In this document: positions 14,378-28,782 of the stretch, one piece after another | How the letters are laid out: every line of letters begins with the position of its first letter | Position numbering within the stretch: the first letter of the stretch is position 1 | Assembly: GCA_023265925.1 (NCBI GenBank) | Contig: JAHFSD010000009.1 | Location: 1-39,562, forward strand | Length of the DNA: 39,562 bases | Origin: an archaeon | GTDB taxonomy: Archaea > Nanobdellota > Nanobdellia > Woesearchaeales > GW2011-AR9 | Direction of reading: 5' to 3' | Made by a program: the position numbers and the translations under genes | The notes under the pieces: model-generated | Told to the model about the DNA's origin: nothing | What the model saw: only the letters and a program-made list of their open reading frames with translations | Database searches by the model: none

Positions 14378-14420
14378 GAATAAAAAATGGCCCCACCGTG
14401 AAGTTCAACCAACTTAATCA
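14378..14420 (-). repeat. Detached copy of the tRNA-Ile 3' end
   Basis: Bases 14378-14401 are identical over 24 bases to 14914-14937, the end of tRNA-Ile. They include one strand of the T-stem (CACGG), the 3' acceptor strand, the discriminator A and the T-rich terminator. Similarity continues weakly into the T-loop intron. No 5' tRNA part is found here. The 290-base gap it lies in (14208-14495) otherwise holds two promoters and an imperfect hairpin at about 14331-14377. Confidence 0.8.
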
Positions 14421-14495
14421 CTTTTTGCATCTTTGCCGGCGAAAAATATATAAATATCGCTTATTTCATTCCTACTATAATAAAGAGGGATTCAT

Positions 14496-14660
14496 ATGGC
14501 CAAACCATTTGACTGGAGCGAATTTTTGCGAATAGCTGGAGCGGTTTTTCTGTTGGGCATGGGAGTAACGGCCGTTTCTATATCTGGAGGAAGGCTTTTT
14601 CACTTAATCTTTGGTTTTGCCCTTGCTGCCGTGGGGGTTGCTTTGTTAGTCAATAGGTAA
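14496..14660 (+). CDS. Small two-helix membrane protein
   Basis: A 54-residue protein starting MAKPFDWSEFLRIAG, with two predicted membrane helices (GAVFLLGMGVTAVSIS and LIFGFALAAVGVALLV). A TATA box (about 14448-14457) and a GAGGGA ribosome-binding site precede the ATG. One base separates its stop from the next gene, so the pair is an operon. The pair is exactly what lies between the two copies of the tRNA-Ile 3' end. Function unknown; small membrane pairs of this kind can be toxins or immunity proteins, but nothing here proves that. Confidence 0.65.
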   Translation: MAKPFDWSEFLRIAGAVFLLGMGVTAVSISGGRLFHLIFGFALAAVGVALLVNR

Positions 14661-14661
14661 A

Positions 14662-14919
14662 ATGGATAAACTGCAACTTCAGAAGAACCGCTTAGATTTG
14701 GAATATCATGGTGAATCACAAAAAGCAAATGCTTTCCTGATTTTATTAACGACCGGGATCTTAGGGTTCCTGGGGACCTTTCTATGGTTGACAGAACGAC
14801 AGCTTTTTTTGGCCGGCATGATGGTAACTTTCATTGTGATCATGGTGGGAATTTTGCGGTACACTAAGAGTTCACGAAGAATGAAAGAGATTCTGGAAGA
14901 AATCGGAAACATTGAATAA
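14662..14919 (+). CDS. Small two-helix membrane protein with charged tails
   Basis: An 85-residue protein. A basic, amphipathic N-terminus (MDKLQLQKNRLDLEYHGES) is followed by two membrane helices (about 25-46 and 50-66) and a charged C-terminal helix (SSRRMKEILEEI). It is translated with the preceding gene. Its stop codon lies inside the 24-base repeat that ends tRNA-Ile, so the gene and the tRNA converge with 4 bases between them. Confidence 0.65.
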   Translation: MDKLQLQKNRLDLEYHGESQKANAFLILLTTGILGFLGTFLWLTERQLFLAGMMVTFIVIMVGILRYTKSSRRMKEILEEIGNIE

Positions 14920-14923
14920 AAAA

Positions 14924-15067
14924 TGGCCCCACCGTGACTTTCACCAAGCGTTAACTTGCTTTGAACACGGGGCCTCACGATCTCTCTGCCATAAGCATAT
15001 CAGTCGTGCGCTCCATTACCCCAGCGAGTCGGCTTTGCCGACAAGTACCAGGCTGAGCTATGGGGCC
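14924..15067 (-). tRNA. tRNA-Ile(GAU) with three introns
   Basis: The 144-base gene folds as a tRNA only if three inserts are removed. Acceptor GGCCCCA/TGGGGCC, D-stem GCTC/GAGC, anticodon stem CACGA/TCGTG and T-stem CCGTG/CACGG all pair fully. A D-loop insert (about 15045-15014, 32 bases) contains a six-pair hairpin. An anticodon-loop insert after position 37 (14997-14982, 16 bases) leaves loop CTGATAA, anticodon GAU. A T-loop insert (about 14960-14939, 22 bases) contains CAAG/CTTG arms. The variable loop has five bases, and CCA is not encoded. A TATA-like box lies at about 15088-15098, 21 bases upstream. Exact splice sites are inferred. A T-run follows the 3' end. Confidence 0.85.
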
Positions 15068-15152
15068 AATGCCTGAGCGAGAGGCGGTATATTTTTAAAT
15101 GTTGCTCCTCTGATTGGAAAGAATCAGGTGTAAAGCTCACCAAAGGATTGTC

Positions 15153-25650: not shown

Positions 25651-25767
25651 GGGGCTGTGGTCTAACCTGGTAGGATTGGCGGTTCGGGTTCATGACGAGA
25701 AGCCGCCTGGTCGGGGTTCAAGTGCAAATAACAAAATATATTTGCAGAACAGATCCTCGCAGCCCCA
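25651..25767 (+). tRNA. tRNA-Pro(CGG) with two introns
   Basis: Acceptor GGGGCTG/CAGCCCC, anticodon stem GGCGG/CCGCC and T-stem CGGGG/CCTCG (one G-U) all pair once two inserts are removed. The anticodon loop is TTCGGG plus one base after a 13-base insert (about 25689-25701), giving anticodon CGG at 25685-25687. The T-loop is interrupted after TTCAA by a 31-base insert (about 25722-25752) whose ends pair as TGCAAATA/TATTTGCA. The D-arm is normal. CCA is not encoded. A TATA box (about 25619-25627) lies 24 bases upstream and a T-rich end follows. Splice sites are inferred. Confidence 0.87.
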
Positions 25768-28639: not shown

Positions 28640-28782
28640 TGGACCGGCCGAGACTTTCGAGGCAACAATCCTTTGGCGCGGATTGCTGGCCGATCGAACT
28701 CGGAGTCTCGTCCATGCCAAGGACGTGTTTGGTAGAGCAACAGACCAGGTCTGCTGTCCTCATACCATTAGACCACCGGCCC
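28640..28782 (-). tRNA. tRNA-Ala(GGC) with two introns
   Basis: Acceptor GGGCCGG pairs with CCGGTCC, giving a G3-U70 pair, the alanine identity element. The anticodon arm CGTCC-TTGGCAT-GGACG is uninterrupted and shows anticodon GGC (28718-28716). The T-stem is CCGAG/CTCGG and the variable loop has five bases. Two inserts must be removed: about 29 bases at the D-arm/anticodon-arm junction near position 26 (28754-28726, containing AGCAGAC/GTCTGTT), and about 39 bases in the T-loop after TTCGA (within 28693-28653, with a nine-pair CAGCAATCC hairpin). CCA is not encoded. A TATA-like run lies at about 28809-28817. Confidence 0.8.

Follow-up and report, generated by a model that had tools for sequence, protein, structure and literature searches.

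A three-intron tRNA-Ile(GAU) gene in a woesearchaeote and the tRNA introns of its archaeal family

Anatomy of the tRNA-Ile(GAU) gene

The window, i.e., the whole stretch of 39,562 nucleotides that was analysed, is contig 48 of the host genome (1.2 Mb in 57 contigs, 86% complete). On its minus strand lies a tRNA-Ile(GAU) gene (15067..14924, with the 5' end at 15067), which consists of four exons and three short introns, of 32 nt in the D-loop, 16 nt in the anticodon loop and 22 nt in the T-loop. The coordinates, the approximate insert sizes (~32/16/22) and the perfect stems had been given in a first-pass annotation of this DNA, and all proved right, on the minus strand, to which all features of the gene described below also belong. 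Exon 1 (15046..15067) holds the 5' strands of the acceptor and D stems and the D-loop AGCCTGGTA, as assigned from anatomy and covariation. It is followed by intron 1 (15014..15045; 32 nt), a D-loop insert with the hairpin GTCGGC/GCCGAC, recognized by its presence or absence in orthologs and by its fold; its register is uncertain, from 19/20 to 21/22, the spliced D-loop product being either TGGTA or TGGTG. Exon 2 (14998..15013) contains the 3' strand of the D stem, G26, the 5' strand of the anticodon stem, and C32 T33 G34 A35 T36 A37, whereupon intron 2 (14982..14997; 16 nt) occupies the canonical 37/38 position and forms a small hairpin, as judged from orthologs and fold. Exon 3 (14960..14981) comprises A38, the 3' strand of the anticodon stem, the variable loop, the 5' strand of the T stem and TTCAAA (54-59); intron 3 (14938..14959), the 22-nt sequence GCAAGTTAACGCTTGGTGAAAG, then interrupts the T-loop at 59/60 with the hairpin CAAG/CTTG, and was placed by orthologs, fold and pairing. 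Lastly, exon 4 (14924..14937) supplies T60, the 3' strands of the T and acceptor stems, and A73. The assignment of exons 2, 3 and 4 was based on the spliced anatomy together with ortholog covariation. Two flanking elements were read directly: a TATA-box-like element, TTTAAAAATATA (15088..15099), identified by consensus match only and centred ~27 nt upstream of position 1, and a terminator-like run of six T residues (14918..14923) directly 3' of the gene.

Upon removal of the inserts, the gene reads GGCCCCA-TA-GCTC-AGCCTGGTA-GAGC-G-CACGA-CTGATAA-TCGTG-AGGCC-CCGTG-TTCAAAT-CACGG-TGGGGCC-A, in which the acceptor (7/7), D (4/4), anticodon (5/5) and T (5/5) stems are complete, with Watson-Crick pairing throughout (21 of 21). 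GAU forms the anticodon, and the T-loop, TTCAAAT, is normal.

Neither ARAGORN, including its intron mode, nor the Rfam tRNA model RF00005 at the gathering threshold had a match at this locus, which they miss because of the inserts. A search for tRNA anatomy with free intron length, on the other hand, returned a single match in the 39.6-kb window, namely this gene, and none in 40 Markov-1 replicates of equal length. The predicted fold of the 144-nt precursor had an energy of -58.8 kcal/mol (z -2.85), and none of the 200 shuffled sequences was equally stable. The three-insert anatomy is not due to chance. The inserts, at 16-32 nt, are also too short for self-splicing introns of group I or II, and no catalytic core of either group was matched by Rfam at the locus.

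A 30-bp imperfect repeat of the 3' end of the gene is found at 14378..14407 (minus strand), 536 bp apart from the copy at 14914-14943, and is likely an old integration border. The 536-bp segment between the copies (14378-14943) holds small ORFs, and this ORF region is common to the congeneric genome G001.

Orthologs and splice junctions

Orthologs of the gene were recovered from ~20 species of the host's family, and each of the three introns was present in some of them and absent from others. The D-loop intron was found in L115, L116, L118, L119, L120 and L122 (at least seven species in all) but was missing from L117, L121, L123, L129 and others, and its length varied from about 24 to 69 nt. 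The anticodon-loop intron occurred in almost all orthologs and was absent from L120 and from genome G023; the T-loop introns ranged from 22 to 100 nt and were variably present or missing. In L127 and L130, the place of the D-loop intron is taken by one in or beside the anticodon stem. At least five species (G000, G011, G012, G017, G051) combine all three introns; the view of the first-pass annotation that three introns in one tRNA are rare has to be qualified, both for tRNA-Ile in the host's family and in light of the other archaeal cases described below. The congeneric ortholog in G001 (L115) shares the D-loop and anticodon-loop introns at 94% identity and lacks the T-loop intron, and its uninterrupted T-loop reads TTCAAAT, which is the very splice product predicted for the host gene.

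Nineteen distinct orthologs were then aligned in spliced form. Overall, 99.5% of the stem cells were paired, a value that is partly by construction, since the alignment was built by hand with stem pairing among the criteria; this does not apply to the double, compensatory changes, which were seen in 12 of the 21 stem pairs. None of 500 shuffles matched either measure. The perfect spliced stems and the covariation among orthologs bear out the identification of the locus in the first-pass annotation as a tRNA-Ile(GAU) with introns in the D-loop, anticodon loop and T-loop.

Archaeal bulge-helix-bulge (BHB) introns are recognized by their location in a tRNA gene and by the canonical tRNA that their excision restores, and both features were found for the three inserts. 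At the T-loop junction, the helix TTCA/TGAA pairs T54-A57 with TGAA, followed by the 3' bulge AGT and the inner helix CAAG/CTTG; the 5' side is asymmetric, with the bulge AAG opposite a single G, but the 4-bp helix and the 3-nt 3' bulge are present. The D-loop and anticodon junctions form internal loops of relaxed pairing, that of the anticodon resembling a bulge-helix-loop. An examination of the junctions for BHB folds, as proposed in the first-pass annotation, gave a near-complete BHB for the T-loop and only relaxed folds for the other two.

The T-loop arrangement recurs in other tRNAs. In 56 T-loop-interrupted tRNAs, the nucleotides before the 3' bulge are mostly YGAA, pairing with T54-57, and they covary with the loop, such that TTCA pairs with TGAA, and TTCG with CGAA. 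Full pairing at nine other offsets was seen in only 0-1 of the 56. Among the 54 with T60, pairing was complete (4/4) in 30 and at least 3/4 in 50. A relaxed BHB, with the inner helix no more than 2 nt away, was formed by 33 of the 54 introns, compared to 3.3 expected from shuffles, and a strict hBHBh' by none of the 54. By these results, the T-loop introns have a relaxed bulge-helix-bulge in common.

It is highly probable, in view of this anatomy, that the locus is a functional, single-copy tRNA-Ile(GAU) gene, the transcript of which contains three BHB-type introns, in the D-loop, at 37/38, and in the T-loop at 59/60. There is very little likelihood that the tRNA is real but retains one of the inserts, most likely that of the D-loop, as an enlarged arm of the mature molecule. 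While the BHB is weakest at the D-loop junction, the insert of which folds into a stable hairpin, such an arm is difficult to reconcile with orthologs in which the same insert is freely present or absent and varies so widely in length. Moreover, the D-loop intron of G012 provides the cleanest junction of this kind, with the helix CCTG/CAGG and the 3-nt bulges GTA and AAA.

Interrupted tRNA genes and splicing enzymes of the host

The first-pass annotation was correct that the host does not belong to the Thermoproteales; judging by what its relatives are called, it is a member of the Woesearchaeota (DPANN). Of its 28 parsable tRNA genes, in several of which the D-arm register is approximate, 26 have introns, and only those for Phe and Tyr are uninterrupted. 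T-loop introns occur in ~16 genes, and three introns each in tRNA-Ile and tRNA-Val(GAC). Canonical tRNA counts in relatives are 3-11 in some genomes that are 93-100% complete, and 30-42 in others. In the order at large, the T-loop intron pattern is informative for some genomes only, e.g., G066, with 12 matches against one in the reversed control, and T-loop introns seem to be enriched in some other families. By these findings, tRNA introns have radiated on a large scale among DPANN archaea, in whose metagenome-assembled genomes (MAGs) tRNA counts look incomplete because the finders miss interrupted genes.

Several other loci may be mentioned here. Two in the window are missed by the finders, namely tRNA-Ala(GGC) (28640-28782, minus strand), with ~30 nt between the D and anticodon stems and a 39-nt T-loop intron, and tRNA-Pro(CGG) (25651-25767, plus strand), which has introns of ~13 nt in the anticodon loop and 31 nt in the T-loop. 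Locus L004 (G000:C38:2932-3073), called Val(GAC) by ARAGORN, was reassigned upon comparison with L142 to elongator tRNA-Met(CAU), with introns inside the 5' strand of the anticodon stem and at 37/38. The host Val(GAC) locus is 100% identical to G001:C31:2114-2417, whereas other loci are 71-96% identical; cross-contamination of the G001 MAG or recent transfer is possible.

A second intact tRNA-Ile(GAU), which the first-pass annotation had named as an observation that would speak against the gene, was not found by targeted searches of the 86%-complete host genome. That the locus is a decayed pseudogene which gathered insertions is, likewise, most improbable. Its invisibility to standard finders, the threefold disruption of a single gene, and the integration-like repeat adjoining it are what decay might produce; however, every stem is intact and covarying, promoter and terminator are in place, the ends of the inserts obey a splicing rule, nearly all host tRNAs are similarly interrupted, and no other tRNA-Ile(GAU) was found in the genome.

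For such a gene, with transcription, splicing and enzyme assembly inferred from sequence, a pathway may be proposed. Most likely, each intron would fold into its own hairpin, the single alpha-type tRNA-splicing endonuclease of the genome would cleave both ends of it, and RtcB, encoded by the host as two pieces at contig ends, would ligate the four exons, giving TTCAAAT in the T-loop. A check of the endonuclease type, also suggested earlier, yielded one alpha-type gene without the CSL/ASL loop. The protein has 197 amino acids with the conserved Tyr/His/Lys motifs, and is closest to Nanoarchaeum equitans NEQ205 (3iey_A, the nearest solved subunit) and Methanocaldococcus jannaschii EndA. By PF01974 search, nearly all genomes of the family, the near-complete ones among them, had one endonuclease gene that exceeded the cut-off, and neither a second subunit nor fused units did so. 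A beta subunit of the N. equitans type (NEQ261) should have been detected, since NEQ261 matches PF01974 at 1e-15; a very divergent beta subunit or partner may have escaped the search. The lysine loop (CSL/ASL) that precedes the catalytic domain, where A. pernix has the insert DVEKPRGADFEG, was present in none of 30 aligned family sequences. Relaxed BHBs are reported to be handled efficiently only by (alpha-beta)2 and epsilon2 endonucleases (PMC6379350, PMC4033280), and their cleavage has been credited to this loop (PMC6379350). Either the host endonuclease would have gained relaxed specificity by other means, or it may have an undetected partner. The finding challenges the rule by which relaxed introns depend on an enzyme that bears the CSL/ASL or has two subunits.

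A recurrent ~90-nt intron and known archaeal systems

About 10-12 host tRNA introns have in common a sequence of ~90 nt, with 79-100% identity, which sits in ~10 T-loops and one anticodon loop, that of Ala-UGC in the rRNA operon. In G001, the Lys, Val(UAC) and Gly(CCC) genes have unrelated introns of 20-34 nt at the corresponding T-loop site, indicating that introns are replaced fast. The G001 Lys intron, GCAAGGTCATCCTTGGTGAAA, resembles the T-loop intron of the host tRNA-Ile, GCAAGTTAACGCTTGGTGAAA, and both could be shrunken forms of the ~90-nt family. When the core of the family was scanned over 84,980 species genomes, 21 stretches matched, all labeled Woesearchaeota, Nanoarchaeota, Nanoarchaeia or plain 'archaeon'. 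A covariance model found the family in 18 of the 49 genomes of the host family, with one weak match elsewhere in the order sample. No Rfam family corresponds to it, and no copy of the core was found in viral contigs.

Outside tRNAs, copies of the core are in fixed orientation beside the 3' ends of tRNA, protein, and apparent 5S rRNA genes, and direct duplications of 17-57 bp flank the non-tRNA copies in L024 (1500-1600), L045/L079, L047/L077, L069, L071 and L078. This suggests a mobile origin of the family, although no gene responsible for its movement was found; its excision by splicing could be the reason why tRNAs tolerate such an element. Integron attC sites and IS200/IS605 ends were considered for this element and dropped, as were casposon-type insertion, the core being at one end only, and a C/D or H/ACA guide RNA, no boxes of which were seen by eye. 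The idea of a split tRNA, with part of tRNA-Ile supplied in trans and the introns as leaders and trailers, draws on the related loci L024 and L078, where the reverse complement of the core stands ahead of a 3' tRNA end in the manner of split-tRNA leaders. It is scarcely credible, as the host gene has its four exons side by side in the proper order, and the arrangement of L024 and L078 recurs at a protein gene and an apparent 5S rRNA gene (L069, L047), so that it is not tRNA-specific.

The three-intron tRNA-Ile is a genuine, conserved gene of a known kind; in archaea, tRNAs with as many as three introns are on record (PMC8450103, PMC4033280). What is new is the extent of the phenomenon across the lineage, a single-subunit endonuclease devoid of the loop, and an intron family some copies of which lie outside tRNAs; in the open-access literature searched, no account was found for the host lineage. 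Thermoproteales, e.g., Pyrobaculum calidifontis, resemble the host in having up to three introns per tRNA at non-canonical positions, and in that different tRNAs have similar introns, from which transposition has been deduced (PMC4033280, PMC8450103), but belong to another phylum and possess (alpha-beta)2 endonucleases with the crenarchaea-specific loop, in contrast to the one loopless alpha-type enzyme of the host. In the Asgard lineages Atabeyarchaeia and Freyarchaeia, 92-95% of tRNAs are interrupted, more than half with several introns; these are unrelated to the host, and the parts of that report consulted mention no shared mobile intron family (PMC11291895). N. equitans is likewise reported to have multiple introns (PMC4033280) and has the nearest solved endonuclease subunit, but it also has NEQ261, whereas in the host family a second PF01974 gene that passes the cut-off was not found. 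In the tRNA-Thr(GGU) of Caldiarchaeum, intron gain has been tied to mobile elements that integrate at tRNA genes (PMC3293823); that is a single locus, however, while in the host numerous tRNAs are involved and an element core recurs.

A broader, rather doubtful scenario is that the ~90-nt family might be mobile DNA that inserts in tRNA loops and by the 3' ends of genes, leaving direct duplications, as an archaeal counterpart of introners; the loopless alpha-type endonuclease would have gained its relaxed specificity otherwise, and the 22-nt intron of tRNA-Ile would be a shrunken relic. The non-tRNA copies, in any event, offer a concrete handle on the movement of archaeal tRNA introns, a question that dates from the transposition inferred in Thermoproteales. 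It is to be noted that the core is also contained in MITE-like repeats with the inverted ends GTAATACTTCA...TGAAGTATTAC in L064, L066, L070, L074 and L081 (JACPND MAG), and that a similar repeat adjoins the host tRNA-Arg(UCU) in L027.
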